From positions 1 to 64,000 of the forward strand of contig NZ_JAGEMK010000007.1 in assembly GCF_017565425.1 (NCBI RefSeq): a stretch of 64,000 bases of DNA. The letters run 5' to 3'. The notes under the pieces were generated by a model. It did no database searches. It was not told the DNA's origin and saw nothing but the letters and a program-made list of their open reading frames with translations. Positions within the stretch are counted from its first letter, which is position 1; every line of letters starts with the position of its first letter. The position numbers and the translations under genes are program-made. The DNA is from Actinotalea soli (lineage in GTDB: Bacteria; Actinomycetota; Actinomycetes; Actinomycetales; Cellulomonadaceae). Of this stretch, positions 56,235-64,000 are shown in pieces.

Positions 56235-57650
56235 CTATCCGCGTCGCCCCAGCAGCCGGGAGAGGCGGTGGCTGGTGGAGGGCTCGTGCTCGGCGGCCGG
56301 CTCGGCCCCGGGGTCCGGGAGCTCGTCGTCGAGGGCCGCCACCCGGTCCTCTCCGTCCGCCCTGGGCACCGGGAGCGCCTCGTCGCCGTGGCCGAGGGGT
56401 GGGATCCGGCGCAGCAGGTGCTGGGCGACCTCGGCCACCGCCTCGGCGTCCTGGGTGATGACGACCTCCATCATCCCGGGGCCGGCCACGCGACGTGCGG
56501 CCATCGACAGTGCCATGTGCTCGGTCATGATCAGCAGGAACGACTCACCCACGAGCGGGTCCCCCGGGGTGACCCGCACCCCCCGCACCCCGGGCACGGG
56601 CGCGGGCGGGACGCCGACCCCGAAGGCGACGGTCAGCACCGACATCGCAGCCAGGAGACCCAGGTCCTCGACCTCGGCACCGTCGACCTCCTCCCAGCTC
56701 GTGGTGCCGTGCCCGACGAGGACCAGCGGGCGGGCCCCCGAGGAGAGCGCCCGCGCCGCGAACACGTGCGCGAGCCTGCGCACCAGATCGCGGTGCACGA
56801 GCCGCTGGCCGCGCGGGGCGACCAGGTCGAACGGGGAGCGCCCGGCCGGGACCTCGGCGCCCGGGCCGCTCCCGAGGGGCACCACGTCTCGCGGCACCGG
56901 GTAGTGCTCGGCGAGGGGGCCGGGCCGTCCGAGGTGGTGCCCCTGGCCGAAGCGCGCCCCGAGGGCGAGGGCGAGGCGGACGTCCTCCTCGCTCTCGATC
57001 CCCTTGACGACGAGGGTGGCGCCGGCGTCCTCGACATGGCGGAGCACGGTCGCGACCACGCCCGGGGCGGCGTCGCTCTCCCCGTCGAGCATCCGGATGT
57101 CGAGCTTGACCACGTCGGCGTGCACCAGGGGCAGGACCGCGAGGCAGCCGAGGCTCGACCCGACGTCGTCGACCGAGATGCCCCAGCCCATCTCCCGTGC
57201 CCGGTCCACCGAGTCGAGCAGCCCGGCAGGGTCGCTCGCGAGCCCGGCGTCGTCGAACTCGACGAAGACGCGGAGCTGAGACTCGGCGTGGCTGACGACC
57301 GCCAGCAGGTCCGCCGGGCAGCCGCGGGTGAGCGAGGCCATCTCGACGTTGATGAACAGGGACATGCTCGGCGGCGCGTCGGCCTCGAGGAAGCCCTGGA
57401 AGGCTGCCGCTCGGCAGGCCCAGTCGAGCTCGGTGACGCGCCCTGCGCGGGCGGCGTGGGCGAACAGGGCGGCCGGGCTCTCGAGGGGCCCCACGGGACC
57501 CCGGGCGAGGGCCTCGACCCCGACCTGCTCGCGGGTCGTGAGCTCGACCAGCGGTTGGTAGACCACCTGGACGGATCGCGCGTCGAGGAGTGCGGCGAAG
57601 GCGGCGGCCTCCGCGGTGTCGAGCTCTTCCGTCGTCCCCGACGCGGTCAC
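56235..57650 (-). CDS. EAL-domain protein with C-terminal DICT-like sensory domain
   Basis: 471 aa, soluble. The EAL domain (about 15-255) keeps GVEALARGP, SVDDVGSSLG, KLDIRML and FGQGHHLGRP, but the usual EGxE reads KGIE and N-terminal Asn motif reads FINVEM, so activity is uncertain. The C-terminal part (about 270-420: SPFDLVAPRG, VLVGHGTTSWEEV, GESFLLIMTEHMALSMAARR) resembles DICT sensory domains. GTG at 57650 has GGGGGAGG upstream; an in-frame start at 57746 reaches into the promoter region. May bind or degrade c-di-GMP. Confidence 0.8.
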   Translation of the reverse strand: MTASGTTEELDTAEAAAFAALLDARSVQVVYQPLVELTTREQVGVEALARGPVGPLESPAALFAHAARAGRVTELDWACRAAAFQGFLEADAPPSMSLFINVEMASLTRGCPADLLAVVSHAESQLRVFVEFDDAGLASDPAGLLDSVDRAREMGWGISVDDVGSSLGCLAVLPLVHADVVKLDIRMLDGESDAAPGVVATVLRHVEDAGATLVVKGIESEEDVRLALALGARFGQGHHLGRPGPLAEHYPVPRDVVPLGSGPGAEVPAGRSPFDLVAPRGQRLVHRDLVRRLAHVFAARALSSGARPLVLVGHGTTSWEEVDGAEVEDLGLLAAMSVLTVAFGVGVPPAPVPGVRGVRVTPGDPLVGESFLLIMTEHMALSMAARRVAGPGMMEVVITQDAEAVAEVAQHLLRRIPPLGHGDEALPVPRADGEDRVAALDDELPDPGAEPAAEHEPSTSHRLSRLLGRRG

Positions 57651-57817
57651 GGTGCCTCCCCCAGGTGGTGCGCACGACCGCGGGGATACGCATCCTCGCG
57701 GTCCAGTCACCCCTGACATCGGCCGTCGGACCGAGGGGATGAGCACACCCCGCCAGCATCTCGCCCCCCGCGCGGGCGGTCAGGCCCCACGACCTCAGAC
57801 CGTCGACCGGTGAGCGG

Positions 57818-60432: not shown

Positions 60433-60858
60433 TCAGCGCCCTCGGGCCCGGGCGATCGCCAGGGCCCAGGCGACCAGGGGTCCCTGGAGGGGCAGACGGC
60501 CCCAGGCGACCCCGGGGCGTCGGGACCAGTGCTGGGCACCCCGCCGCGAGCGGACGGCCATCGTGACGTTGCCTGGCAGCACCGCCACCAGGAGGGCGGC
60601 CGCGGCCCACCCCCCGGCAGCCCGCGAGCGCGGGTGGGCGAGCAGGCCTGCGCAGACGAGCTCGGCGACGCCGCTGCCCAGCACCCACGGGTCGGGGCGG
60701 CCGAGCCGGCGCGGGACGAGGCCCCGGAAGACCTCGGGCCGCACGAGGTGCAGCGCCCCGGCACCGCCGAGGAGGGCCGCCAGGGCGAGGGCCGAGCCCG
60801 GACCGCTGACGGCCACGAGGACCTCCGGTGCCGTGGCACGCCCCGGGTCGCCGGGCAT
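60433..60858 (-). CDS. Small DoxX-like membrane protein
   Basis: 141 aa with about four hydrophobic segments. The pattern is that of DoxX/SURF4-like proteins: SALALAALLGGAGALHLVRP, EVFRGLVPRRLGRPDPWVLG, VAELVCAGLLAHPRSRAAGG and LLVAVLPGNVTMAV. Some relatives help in redox or thiol stress, but none of that is shown here. ATG at 60858 shares one base with the nagA stop (TGATG), so translation is coupled to nagA. Confidence 0.75.
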   Translation of the reverse strand: MPGDPGRATAPEVLVAVSGPGSALALAALLGGAGALHLVRPEVFRGLVPRRLGRPDPWVLGSGVAELVCAGLLAHPRSRAAGGWAAAALLVAVLPGNVTMAVRSRRGAQHWSRRPGVAWGRLPLQGPLVAWALAIARARGR

Positions 60859-62147
60859 CACGCGCGACGACCCCACGGCGAGCCCACCGCGGTCACGTCG
60901 GTCCCCGCACGCAGCACCCGCAGCGGGCGCAGCGCGGCGTCCGTCACGAGGACGTCGGCGCGCCGTCCCTCGGCCAGCGCGCCGATGTCCTCCCGCCCGA
61001 GCACCTGGGCCGGGACCGTCGCCGCCATGGTGACCGCGTCGAGGAGGTCGACCCCGCCCGCGACGGTGGTCCGCACGACGTCGAGGAGGTGCGCGGTGCC
61101 CCCCGCGAGCGCGCCGGGCACTGCGCCGGCGAGCCGTGCGGCGCCGTCCGCGACCACGACCTCCTGCGAGCCGAGGCGGTAGCTGCCGTCGGGCATGCCG
61201 GCCGCGGCCATCGCGTCGGTCACGAGGACCAGGGATCGGGGCCCGACGAGCTCCCACACCTCGCGGACCACGGCCGGGTCCAGGTGCACGCCGTCGCCGA
61301 TGAGCTCCAGGACGAGCTCACCTCGTCGGGCTGCGGCGAGCAGCTCCCCGATCGGCCCCACCTCCCGGTGGTGCCAGGGACGCATGCCGTTGAACAGGTG
61401 GGTCGCGGTGGCACGTGCGGACCGGACCGGACCGACCCCGCCGCCCTCGGCGTCCTCGGGGCTGGACACCTGCCCCACCTCGCCGGTGCGGAGCAGCTCG
61501 ACCGAGAGCTCGAGGGCCGCACGCGTCGCCTCGGGCCCGGCGTCCGTGTGGCCCCAGGAGGGCAGGGCACCGCCGCGCACGAGCCTGGCGGCCACGCCGT
61601 CCGTGCCCTGGGTGCCGGGGAGCTCGGGGGCCAGCGTCATGGTGACGAGGTGACCGCGGCCGAGGGCGAGCAGCTCGGAGGTCAGGTCGGGGTCGGGGGC
61701 GAGGATGAGGCCGGGGTCCTGCGCACCGCACCGCACCGTGGACAGGAACGGCCCCTCGAGGTGGATGCCCCCGATCTCTCCGGCCTCGGCCACGTGAGCC
61801 AGCAGGGCGACACGGGAGCGGAGCACCTCGGGGCTCGCGGTGACCAAGGAGGCGACCACCGTCGTCGTGCCGTGGCGCCGGTGCTCGTCGACGGCGACCT
61901 GCACCTCGGCCGCCGTCCTCGCGTCCGGGAAGGAGGCCCCTCCCCCGCCGTGGCAGTGCAGGTCGACCAGGCCGGGCAGCACGTAGCCGTCGGTGACGGG
62001 TGCCTCCTCGACCAGGTCGCCGAGACCTGCCGCCCGCGCACCGAGAGCCTCGCCGACCCAGCGGATGCGGCCCCCGTCGACCGCGACGACCCCGTCGGGG
62101 ATCAGGCCGGTGGGGGTCACCACCCGTCCGCGCAGCAGGGTGGTCAC
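60858..62147 (-). CDS. nagA: N-acetylglucosamine-6-phosphate deacetylase
   Basis: 429 aa amidohydrolase. Motifs: PGLVDLHCHGGGGASF (metal-ligand region), GGIHLEGPFL (Glu ligand), SWGHTDAG (His), ATHLFNGMRPWHHR (His and substrate) and LVTDAMAAAGMPDG (catalytic Asp). Makes glucosamine-6-P for NagB from the product of the ROK kinase. I choose GTG at 62147, which has a GAGGAGG seven bases upstream, over a GTG at 62174. Coupled to the DoxX-like gene downstream. Upstream lies a dyad-rich spacer. Confidence 0.93.
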   Translation of the reverse strand: MTTLLRGRVVTPTGLIPDGVVAVDGGRIRWVGEALGARAAGLGDLVEEAPVTDGYVLPGLVDLHCHGGGGASFPDARTAAEVQVAVDEHRRHGTTTVVASLVTASPEVLRSRVALLAHVAEAGEIGGIHLEGPFLSTVRCGAQDPGLILAPDPDLTSELLALGRGHLVTMTLAPELPGTQGTDGVAARLVRGGALPSWGHTDAGPEATRAALELSVELLRTGEVGQVSSPEDAEGGGVGPVRSARATATHLFNGMRPWHHREVGPIGELLAAARRGELVLELIGDGVHLDPAVVREVWELVGPRSLVLVTDAMAAAGMPDGSYRLGSQEVVVADGAARLAGAVPGALAGGTAHLLDVVRTTVAGGVDLLDAVTMAATVPAQVLGREDIGALAEGRRADVLVTDAALRPLRVLRAGTDVTAVGSPWGRRA

Positions 62148-62240
62148 CCAGGGCCTCCTCGAGCTCGTGGGCACGAGGCCGAGAGCGACTCGTGCCCGAT
62201 CAGCCTAGTGCGGAGGCCCGCGGCAGGGCATGATCGGTGT

Positions 62241-62269: not shown

Positions 62270-62382
62270 CGGCCGACCGGTGTGGCAACTGGGTGAACGC
62301 CCCCCTCAAACAGGGACAGGTCGGACATACTGGCGCGACCTGCCCCTGACGATCATGGGGCCGAAACCCTCGGAGGACTGCT

Positions 62383-62724
62383 GTGCGAGACCTGGCCCCA
62401 GAGATCCATCGTCAGCGCCTCGTCGTGGAGGGACTGTGCCGTGAGCCGATCAGCGCCGCCTCGATCTCCGCCTACCTCTCGCAGCTGTCGAAGTCCATCG
62501 ACATGGTCGAGCTCACCGAACCGGTGACCCACCAGTCCCCCCTGTACGGGTGGGCCGGCTGGATCCACTGGGAGACCTCGGGGGCCCACTTCTACGCCTG
62601 GGACCAGCCCCGGCTGTTCTTCAGCGTCGACATCTACGCCTGCAAGCCCTTCGTGGCCGAGGCTGCGGTCGAGCTCACCCGTGAGTGGTTCGACGCCACC
62701 GAGGTCGTCTACAAGGAGTTCTGA
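62383..62724 (+). CDS. SpeD-like (S-adenosylmethionine decarboxylase superfamily) protein
   Basis: 113 aa, short for class 1b SpeD (about 130). Aligning by eye to bacterial AdoMetDC: RLVVEGLCREP matches the HLVAEFYECD start, SPLYGWAGW matches LPYGVSGVV, and FFSVDIYACKP matches AAIDLFTCGE, with C87 in place of the catalytic Cys. The pyruvoyl Ser falls at S66 in WETSGAHFYAW, but the usual E-S junction is ET-S and the catalytic His is a Tyr (with H69 nearby). So autocleavage and AdoMet use are doubtful; SpeD-family members with other substrates (Arg, Orn) are known. GTG start with GGAGG 6 bases before. Overlaps the next gene by one base. Confidence 0.75.
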   Translation: MRDLAPEIHRQRLVVEGLCREPISAASISAYLSQLSKSIDMVELTEPVTHQSPLYGWAGWIHWETSGAHFYAWDQPRLFFSVDIYACKPFVAEAAVELTREWFDATEVVYKEF

Positions 62725-63488
62725 TGAGCGCCGTCCCGTACTCCATGCACTTCGCCCCCGAGGGCGATCTGCTCGAGTCTGCTCGCGAGTGCGAGGCCGA
62801 GGTCTTCCTGCGCTGGTACGGCAACACGCGCGAGCAGCTCGCCGAGGAGTACGGCCCCTACGACGACGCCTCGGCCTTCCTCGCGATCGCGGACCGGGCG
62901 GGCGAGGTGGTCGGGGCCGTGCGGCTGCTCGCCCCCGGGGGGCGAGCGGGGCTCAAGACCCTGACCGACGTCGCGGCCCCGCCCTGGTCGGTACCCGGCG
63001 CGAGGGTCGCGGCCGCGGCCGGCCTCGACCTCGGCTCGACCTGGGAGATCGCGACCCTCGGGGTGCGGCGTCAGGACCGGGCCGACGGGCTGCGCCTGTC
63101 CCTGGCGCTGTACCACGGCCTCATCGCGGTGTGCCGGGCCAACGGGATGACCTCGTTCGTGGCCGTGCTCGACGAGCGCGTCCGACGCCTGCTGCACTCG
63201 GTCGGCCTGCTCACGCAGGTGCTGCCGGGGACCTCGACGGCGCCCTACCTGGGCTCCGCGGCGAGCACCCCGGTCTTCGCACGGTGCGTCCCGGTGCTCG
63301 ACAACCAGCGCCAGCAGTTCCCCGACGCCTACCGCCTGGTGACGCTGGGGGTCGGGCTCGACGGCATCACCGTCCCGCCGGCTGAGGCGTTCCGCCTGCA
63401 CGACGGCCTGCGCGCCCCCGACGACCTGTCGAGCACCACGCTGGCCGCCGTCCCCTCCGACCTGGCTCTCCTGACCGGTCGCGCGTAG
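62724..63488 (+). CDS. GNAT-fold, autoinducer-synthase-like acyltransferase
   Basis: 254 aa. The fold resembles LuxI-type synthases and related GNATs: ECEAEVFLRWYGNT, EEYGPYDDASAFLAIAD, the glycine-containing GEVVGAVRLLAPG, LKTLTDVAAPPW and STWEIATLGVRRQDR (like the WExSR strand of LuxI, with Thr where Arg is usual), then LYHGLIAVCRANGMTSFVAVL. It should transfer an acyl group to an amine; donor and acceptor are unknown. It is coupled to the SpeD-like gene by TGATG, so the two proteins probably act together. Convergent with an EAL gene. Confidence 0.7.
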   Translation: MSAVPYSMHFAPEGDLLESARECEAEVFLRWYGNTREQLAEEYGPYDDASAFLAIADRAGEVVGAVRLLAPGGRAGLKTLTDVAAPPWSVPGARVAAAAGLDLGSTWEIATLGVRRQDRADGLRLSLALYHGLIAVCRANGMTSFVAVLDERVRRLLHSVGLLTQVLPGTSTAPYLGSAASTPVFARCVPVLDNQRQQFPDAYRLVTLGVGLDGITVPPAEAFRLHDGLRAPDDLSSTTLAAVPSDLALLTGRA

Positions 63489-63506: not shown

Positions 63507-64000
63507 CTAGCCCTGCTGACCGAACGCGTCGAGGGAGATCGTCGTCGTCCCCGGGCTGCCGAAGCGCTCGGCCTGACGCCGTCGCACCCACGGCGCGACC
63601 TCCGAGGCCGGCATGGGCCGGGCGACGTGGAAGCCCTGGAGGACGTCGACCCCCATGGGCAGCAGCTCGGCCGCGGCCGCCTGGTCCTCGACGCCCTCGG
63701 CGACCAGGCGCAGCCCGAAGGCGCGGGCCATCTGGGCCGTGGTCTGCACGATCATGCGGCTGCGCTCGTCGGTGGCCACCGGGGTGATGAAGGAGCGGTC
63801 CATCTTGATCTCCTGGACGGGCAGGTCCCGCAGGTAGGACAACGACGAGAACCCGGTCCCGTAGTCGTCGATCGCCACCTGCACCCCGTGGCGCCGTAGC
63901 TCGAGCAGGGCCTCGCGCGCGCGCTCCGGCTCGGCCAGGAACGAGTCCTCGGTGACCTCGACCATGAGTCGGTCGGCGGGGAAGGTGGCGTCGTCGAGGG
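63507..64000 (-). CDS. EAL-domain protein, C-terminal part (cut by window end)
   Basis: Open reading frame continues past 64000. The visible 164 residues hold the second half of an EAL domain: FPADRLMVEVTEDSFL, IDDYGTGFSSLSYLRDLP, EIKMDRSFI, AEGVEDQ and LQGFHVARPMP. All these catalytic and metal residues are intact, so c-di-GMP phosphodiesterase activity is likely, provided that the missing EAL and Asn motifs are present. Ends in a short tail after the domain. It is convergent with the SpeD-like/acyltransferase unit. Confidence 0.88.
   Translation of the reverse strand, partial: LDDATFPADRLMVEVTEDSFLAEPERAREALLELRRHGVQVAIDDYGTGFSSLSYLRDLPVQEIKMDRSFITPVATDERSRMIVQTTAQMARAFGLRLVAEGVEDQAAAAELLPMGVDVLQGFHVARPMPASEVAPWVRRRQAERFGSPGTTTISLDAFGQQG

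Follow-up and report, generated by a model that had tools for sequence, protein, structure and literature searches.

In Actinotalea soli, a short gene for a SpeD-like protein of the AdoMet decarboxylase superfamily and a gene for a LuxI/FeeM-type GNAT acyltransferase form an overlapping pair (Table 1) that is conserved across distant bacteria and in most loci lies close to genes encoding signalling proteins. The association with signalling genes is the main finding beyond the initial annotation, which was made from the window (the whole stretch of 64,000 nucleotides analysed) and had proposed that the two proteins together yield a small N-acylated molecule. Because the pair is kept across distant bacteria, usually beside a c-di-GMP enzyme or a kinase, it likely plays a role in signalling and would represent an uncharacterised cell-signalling system. 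In our judgement, there is an even chance that the pair is a two-enzyme signal-synthesis cassette whose product, probably an acylated amine, is sensed by the neighbouring protein.

Table 1. Features of the locus in the window
Feature	Position	Strand	Basis or assignment
GGAGG, putative ribosome-binding site of the SpeD-like gene	62372..62376	+	sequence
SpeD-like gene, 113 aa, GTG start	62383..62724	+	SG-x-H-x-Y clade, AdoMet decarboxylase superfamily
AAGGAG, putative ribosome-binding site of the acyltransferase gene, inside the SpeD-like gene	62713..62718	+	sequence
LuxI/FeeM-type GNAT acyltransferase gene, 254 aa	62724..63488	+	Pfam/NCBIfam scores, AF2, Foldseek
Convergent gene for a GGDEF-EAL protein (C-terminal EAL portion), putative receptor/output	63507..64000	-	Pfam

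The gene pair and its distribution

The stop codon of the SpeD-like gene (TGA, 62722-62724) and the start codon of the acyltransferase gene (ATG, 62724-62726) have one base in common (TGATG), as the initial annotation had read. The AAGGAG motif lies 5 nt 5' of this ATG and codes for the conserved C-terminal Lys-Glu of the SpeD-like protein; of the nine plus-strand relatives listed, all but L003 also have it ahead of the gene overlap. Approximately 50 nt 5' of the SpeD-like start, at 62326-62333, the window carries CATACTGG, which is found upstream in L008, L012, and L013 as well and is a candidate common promoter element. Immediately upstream of the pair lies a divergent gene for a NagA-like N-acetylglucosamine-6-phosphate deacetylase (60858-62174), which scores 182 bits, i.e., below the NCBIfam equivalog cut-off of 226. 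Another EAL-domain gene is located approx. 5 kb away (56235-57746); the C-terminal part of its product resembles a DICT sensor by eye, and EAL is the only Pfam domain above the cut-off.

The coupling of the two genes, first noticed at this single locus, is borne out in relatives. Among 149 genomes, including the window's own, the SpeD-like gene was found in 15, and an acyltransferase homolog follows it in all 15 (the window counted). A scan of genome_contigs provided 120 relatives, of which the 80 listed are the loci counted here. With the acyltransferase scored as present when located downstream, on the same strand, and within 800 nt, 72 of the 80 listed loci contain it, reaching as far as Saccharibacteria, and in 63 of these 72 the first possible acyltransferase start falls no more than 15 nt past the SpeD stop codon. 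Eight loci are without it (L034, L058, L070, L076, L081, L089, L093, and L095); L058 and L081 are apparently second copies, as their genomes (those of L031 and L025, judging by contig prefix) hold one acyltransferase each. Six additional close loci, retrieved with a profile instead of the motif, include five with the acyltransferase (L129, L186, and L209-L211) and one without (L130). Moreover, the distances among the SpeD-like proteins correlate with those among the acyltransferases (Mantel r 0.87, n = 68; none of 999 permutations reached this value), a value that is also raised by common vertical descent, for which it is uncorrected. Taken with the two counts of adjacency, this correlation rules out pairing by chance.

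The SpeD-like gene itself has a patchy distribution. Its profile matches 9 of 396 Actinomycetota genomes (five at 40 bits or more), 23 of 96 genomes of the Blastococcus family, and 23 of 286 genomes from the phylum to which a Saccharibacteria locus belongs (five above 120 bits). A Mycolicibacterium sphagni locus (L046, 8001-11422) carries a cassette of the Saccharibacteria type, including a HisKA_7TM kinase, and its SpeD-like protein groups inside Saccharibacteria (SH-aLRT 80-89, not starred); judging from this grouping, the cassette was likely acquired by horizontal transfer. The search for the close clade on plasmids found no copy, only three distant records, and phage records provided no SpeD-like match; viral contigs contained 30 relatives.

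The SpeD-like protein and its active site

The SpeD-like protein passes the threshold of the Pfam AdoMet_dc family (PF02675; 31.7 bits, cut-off 25), which at an E value of 0.01 matches all 66 clade members compared. Its AF2 model has a mean pLDDT of 97, and the top Foldseek matches of this model are structures of the AdoMet decarboxylase of Thermotoga maritima (TM 0.80 to 1tmi); that of Aquifex is matched as well (TM 0.78). Searching PDB sequences with the SpeD profile gave nothing but RNA-binding proteins, at E values of at least 0.036, which were taken as noise; the assignment is therefore based on fold and Pfam. In a quick tree, the SpeD-like proteins split from nine canonical sequences with an SH-aLRT of 100, although the alignment has few columns (113), numerous nodes are unresolved, and the central branch is saturated. 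By this tree, the SpeD-like protein belongs to a separate clade of the AdoMet decarboxylase superfamily.

Residues were mapped by aligning profiles with hhalign, using 15 canonical SpeD sequences as the reference (E 3e-6), and by alignment with the Thermotoga protein. Thermotoga Ser63 and Cys83 correspond to S66 and C87 of the window protein, whereas His68, His64, and Ser55 are replaced by Y71, G67, and A58, respectively. Nine residues (H62, E64, S66, G67, H69, Y71, D83, Y85, and C87) are invariant in all 84 SpeD-like sequences; because 80 of the loci were chosen by the peptides WAGWIHW or AHFYAWD, the conservation seen at H62, H69, and Y71 follows in part from this choice, and S66, G67, E64, and C87 fall outside both peptides. 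Thus, of the residues that mark a class 1b SpeD in T. maritima numbering, Ser63 and Cys83 are present throughout, and His68 is consistently Tyr. The available text of PMC10407285 describes Thermotoga Ser63, His68, and Cys83 as essential, with His68 essential in self-processing and also taking part in catalysis. The initial annotation was therefore right about the Cys and about the Ser, which it had held to be possibly kept; the His, which it had regarded as displaced, is instead a Tyr, and the invariant H69 stands two residues ahead of it. H62, E64, and S66 alternate along one strand, as do H69 and Y71 along the following one, so that these side chains could point into a common pocket, a reading based on strand periodicity only.

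The kept Ser and Cys argue for catalysis by the SpeD-like protein, and the loss of His68 argues that either its substrate or its processing is altered. The decarboxylase activity suggested in the initial annotation accordingly finds some favour in S66 and C87 and is put in question by the Tyr in place of an essential His. An alternative is a non-catalytic role for the SpeD-like protein (as an allosteric subunit or a substrate-binding helper), with the acyltransferase alone making the signal, e.g., an N-acyl amino acid. Replacement of the His68 and Ser55 equivalents throughout the clade would agree with such a role, as would the one-base gene overlap, which would suit synthesis of two proteins in fixed proportion. 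However, S66 and C87 are among the four invariant columns of an 11-sequence mixed alignment that includes phage, cyanobacterial-plasmid, alphaproteobacterial, and two canonical forms, and they are kept in branches with only 22-43% identity to the window protein; furthermore, relatives exist without the acyltransferase, and the SpeD-like protein is far better conserved than its partner (67% versus 36% mean identity). A non-catalytic partner is on this evidence unlikely, albeit a serious contender. Under the preferred reading, in which the SpeD-like protein is an enzyme, a constant head group combined with varying tails would fit the two identity values.

The acyltransferase had no match in the 30 viral-contig loci or in L188-L190; therefore, the SpeD-like protein also serves other contexts. 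In the viral contigs L152, L157, L160, and L164, a SpeD-like relative with approx. 40% identity that keeps the S66/H69/Y71/C87 pattern is followed by a saccharopine/lysine-6-dehydrogenase-like gene, and an aldehyde dehydrogenase gene lies just upstream or close by in L152, L160, and L164. Pfam supports the dehydrogenase assignment for L157 and L160 and the aldehyde dehydrogenase assignment for L160 and L164, the others having been recognised by eye; in the viral loci L143 and L145 this dehydrogenase context was not seen. These four loci would combine the same fold with a different pathway context. In a Micavibrio MAG (L095, 7953-10614), the SpeD-like gene overlaps a gene for a 255-aa protein, which is followed by a PLP aminotransferase whose best NCBIfam match, GntC, is under the cut-off. 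The 255-aa protein resembles nicotianamine synthase by eye; this identification was rejected, as Pfam gave one match far below the cut-off and NCBIfam none. In the Saccharibacteria locus L093 (3662-4905), the place of the LuxI-like gene is taken by a convergent LPG_synthase_C-like gene (a weak match, below the cut-off), and a kinase and a response regulator lie near the SpeD-like gene. A deeper branch is found in cyanobacteria, Halioglobus, and alphaproteobacteria (L173-L175, which are plasmids, L177, and L178); it keeps the Ser, Gly, and Tyr, and the second His is missing. A GNAT gene adjoins the SpeD relative of this branch in L174 (annotated) and L177 (by eye).

The initial annotation had pointed out that no spermidine synthase gene is nearby, and none is detectable in the whole genome either: PF01564 had no match in the window's genome and matched 11 of 14 control genomes, so that the usual partner of a class 1b SpeD is not detected. 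No other SpeD was found in this genome by PF02675, in a search that also missed the window's own divergent SpeD-like gene; the clade profile A3 gave a single match, namely the window's SpeD-like gene. With neither a spermidine synthase nor another SpeD detected in the genome, the classical spermidine route was rejected, and decarboxylated AdoMet, one of the products initially envisaged, is disfavoured as a supply for polyamines.

The acyltransferase and its substrate

The acyltransferase falls narrowly below the cut-off of the Pfam Autoind_synth family (PF00765; 21.7 bits, cut-off 24), which at an E value of 0.01 matches 10 of 56 members. Its best NCBIfam relative, the PEP-CTERM/exosortase acyltransferase TIGR03694, is far from reaching its own threshold (37.9 against 111.95 bits). 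The AF2 model (mean pLDDT 92) adopts a GNAT/LuxI fold: Foldseek matches in the PDB are BjaI, LasI, and FeeM, with BjaI structures at the top (best E 2e-7) and FeeM having the best TM by target length, 0.75, among the LuxI/FeeM-type matches listed. The family assignments initially made for both proteins therefore hold at the superfamily level, and the models support the SpeD and LuxI/GNAT folds without refuting either.

The key LuxI residues were mapped onto the 56 members through a weak alignment with LasI. In EsaI numbering, the key residues of LuxI enzymes are Asp45, Asp48, Arg68, Glu97, Ser99, and Arg100, with Phe28 and Trp34 in the SAM site, as listed in the available part of PMC5131480. 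Through this weak alignment, equivalents of Arg68 and Phe28 are found in all 56 acyltransferases, and an acidic residue is present at position 48 in 49 and at position 97 in 55. In contrast, the remaining LuxI positions are mostly replaced: Trp34 by Asn (54/56), Ser99 by Ala or Gly (54/56), Arg100 by Thr or Ser (55/56), and Asp45 by Gly (40/56). This pattern suggests that the acyltransferase likely uses an altered amine substrate, and it lends no support to the SAM-based chemistry that the initial annotation had borrowed from LuxI-type enzymes. One could still suppose an ordinary AHL synthase accompanied by an accessory SpeD relative that handles SAM, given the fold match to BjaI and LasI and the universal Arg68 and Phe28 equivalents. 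The same four replacements render this supposition very improbable and, together with the score below the Pfam cut-off, led to the rejection of a canonical AHL synthase.

Signalling genes, proposed route, and known systems

The initial annotation had remarked that an adjacent EAL gene would fit a signalling role. The EAL domain is there, although it is really the tail of a GGDEF-EAL protein of at most 776 aa whose gene extends past the end of the window. The whole protein scores 231 bits for EAL and 131 bits for GGDEF in Pfam and has GGDEF, EALVRW, and DDYGTG motifs as well as a hydrophobic N-terminal part. The signalling link is firmer than had been proposed, since a signalling gene lies within approx. 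4.2 kb in 65 of the 80 listed loci, in five arrangements. In 54 loci the neighbour is a GGDEF/EAL gene, either downstream and convergent (23), upstream in the same direction (23), upstream and divergent (5), or downstream in the same direction (3); in the other 11, it encodes a histidine kinase, a 7TM domain, or a response regulator. Neighbours were recognised with profiles for GGDEF, EAL, kinase, 7TM, and response regulator domains that had been derived iteratively from the same loci; neighbour clustering, blurred by wrong-frame ORFs, served only for spotting candidates. As a control, eight sensor proteins and one regulator were compared with Pfam in addition to the window's own neighbour, which confirmed GGDEF-EAL in 5 of 5 and HisKA_7TM kinases in 3 of 3, plus the response regulator. 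The type of neighbour differs between phyla: Actinomycetota mostly have a GGDEF-EAL protein, and Saccharibacteria a HisKA_7TM histidine kinase plus response regulator.

A synthase gene near a sensor-type gene, the layout of a quorum-sensing module, occurs in 64 of the 72 loci with the acyltransferase versus 1 of the 8 without it (L093). Among the eight acyltransferase loci lacking a signalling gene, five have less than 1.7 kb of downstream sequence; the remaining three (L082, L088, and L090, from Micromonosporaceae) have full flanks and contain the pair with no signalling gene within 4.2 kb. In an internal control of 39 loci with full 8-kb flanks, a signalling gene is near in 31 and farther out in 3. 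All six profile-found loci have a GGDEF, EAL, 7TM, or response-regulator match, including L130, in which a GGDEF gene adjoins the SpeD-like gene and the acyltransferase is absent; a response regulator also lies near the more distant L189, which lacks the acyltransferase. It follows from L130 and L189 that sensor and acyltransferase are not always together, and the link with signalling genes is thus strong, yet not exclusive to the full pair. By a hydropathy count, most of the GGDEF proteins contain 5-10 hydrophobic segments in their N-terminal part; L052, L071, L072, and L086 encode GGDEF proteins with 1-3, and both proteins tested by Pfam, from L052 and L071, contain PAS domains. A pattern match found AGDDL in 18 of the 54 GGDEF domains, and these proteins may therefore only degrade or bind c-di-GMP.

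The pair might also make a structural or storage molecule (an acylated amine, a lipid, or an envelope component), with the neighbour regulating its synthesis via c-di-GMP or a kinase rather than sensing it. The PEP-CTERM/exosortase acyltransferase as best NCBIfam relative, albeit well under the cut-off, and the FeeM-like structural match are compatible with such a product, and there is room for envelope genes beside the pair, whose recurrent neighbours are annotated only in part. However, the same pair is accompanied by a c-di-GMP enzyme in some loci and by a 7TM-type kinase in others, and this alternative seems rather improbable. According to the preferred signal-synthesis reading, the SpeD-like protein, a relative of pyruvoyl enzymes with a rebuilt active site, would make a small head group derived from an amine or amino acid, to which the co-translated LuxI/FeeM-like acyltransferase would then attach an acyl chain; this two-step chemistry is offered as a hypothesis. 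A neighbouring membrane protein would sense the acylated product: in Actinomycetota mostly a GGDEF-EAL protein, so that c-di-GMP would be altered, and in Saccharibacteria a HisKA_7TM histidine kinase with its response regulator. More tentatively, and with some doubt, the product could constitute a new class of signal, in which a LuxI-like enzyme N-acylates the modified amine of a SpeD-derived pyruvoyl enzyme, and a membrane GGDEF-EAL protein (Actinomycetota) or a 7TM-type kinase (Saccharibacteria) reads the product directly.

Some Saccharibacteria live on Actinomycetota; hence, an acylated-amine signal could serve as a common epibiont-host language. If these proposals are correct, Actinomycetota and Saccharibacteria would have in common an undescribed two-enzyme route of small-molecule signalling that feeds c-di-GMP or a phosphorelay, and the AdoMet-decarboxylase fold would have acquired a new reaction, with its canonical catalytic His swapped across the clade. 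One small cassette would then bear on chemistry, receptor binding, and epibiont-host communication.

A full-text literature search, whose scope leaves out supplements, preprints, and most subscription journals, found no titles or abstracts describing a SpeD-LuxI pairing. Partial prior art on the association with kinases in CPR is provided by PMC7567580, which in its available text reports 18 LuxI homologs adjoining sensory kinases in CPR genomes and in whose main text the word "decarboxylase" does not occur. The Saccharibacteria loci described here may overlap that set; those homologs, as far as the text available goes, have an aromatic residue at Trp35, whereas the acyltransferases of the pair have Asn. 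The LuxI synthases BjaI, LasI, and EsaI resemble the acyltransferase in their GNAT-type fold, their Phe28 and Arg68 equivalents, and the mostly acidic positions of Asp48 and Glu97. Unlike them, the acyltransferase has a constant SpeD partner, sits below the Pfam cut-off, and has lost Trp34, Ser99, Arg100, and mostly Asp45; in a search that did not extend to LuxR, the genes that recur beside it are of the GGDEF/EAL or kinase type. The N-acyl amino acid synthase FeeM and the PEP-CTERM acyltransferase TIGR03694 have the same superfamily fold, but their gene context differs, and the TIGR03694 cut-off is far from reached.

The class 1b SpeD of T. maritima (1tlu/1tmi/1vr7) has its fold, pyruvoyl Ser, and catalytic Cys in common with the SpeD-like protein, whose clade differs in the residues at positions 68 (Tyr), 55 (Ala), and 64 (Gly) and has gained the invariant H62, E64, and H69. 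SpeDA and SpeDC, described in the available text of PMC10407285 as neofunctionalised SpeD proteins that act as arginine and ornithine decarboxylases, are likewise SpeD homologs whose genomes lack spermidine synthase. According to the same text, they are reasoned to retain Ser63, His68, and Cys83 together, and their clusters contain polyamine genes; in contrast, the clade described here has lost His68 and is accompanied by an acyltransferase and signalling genes.
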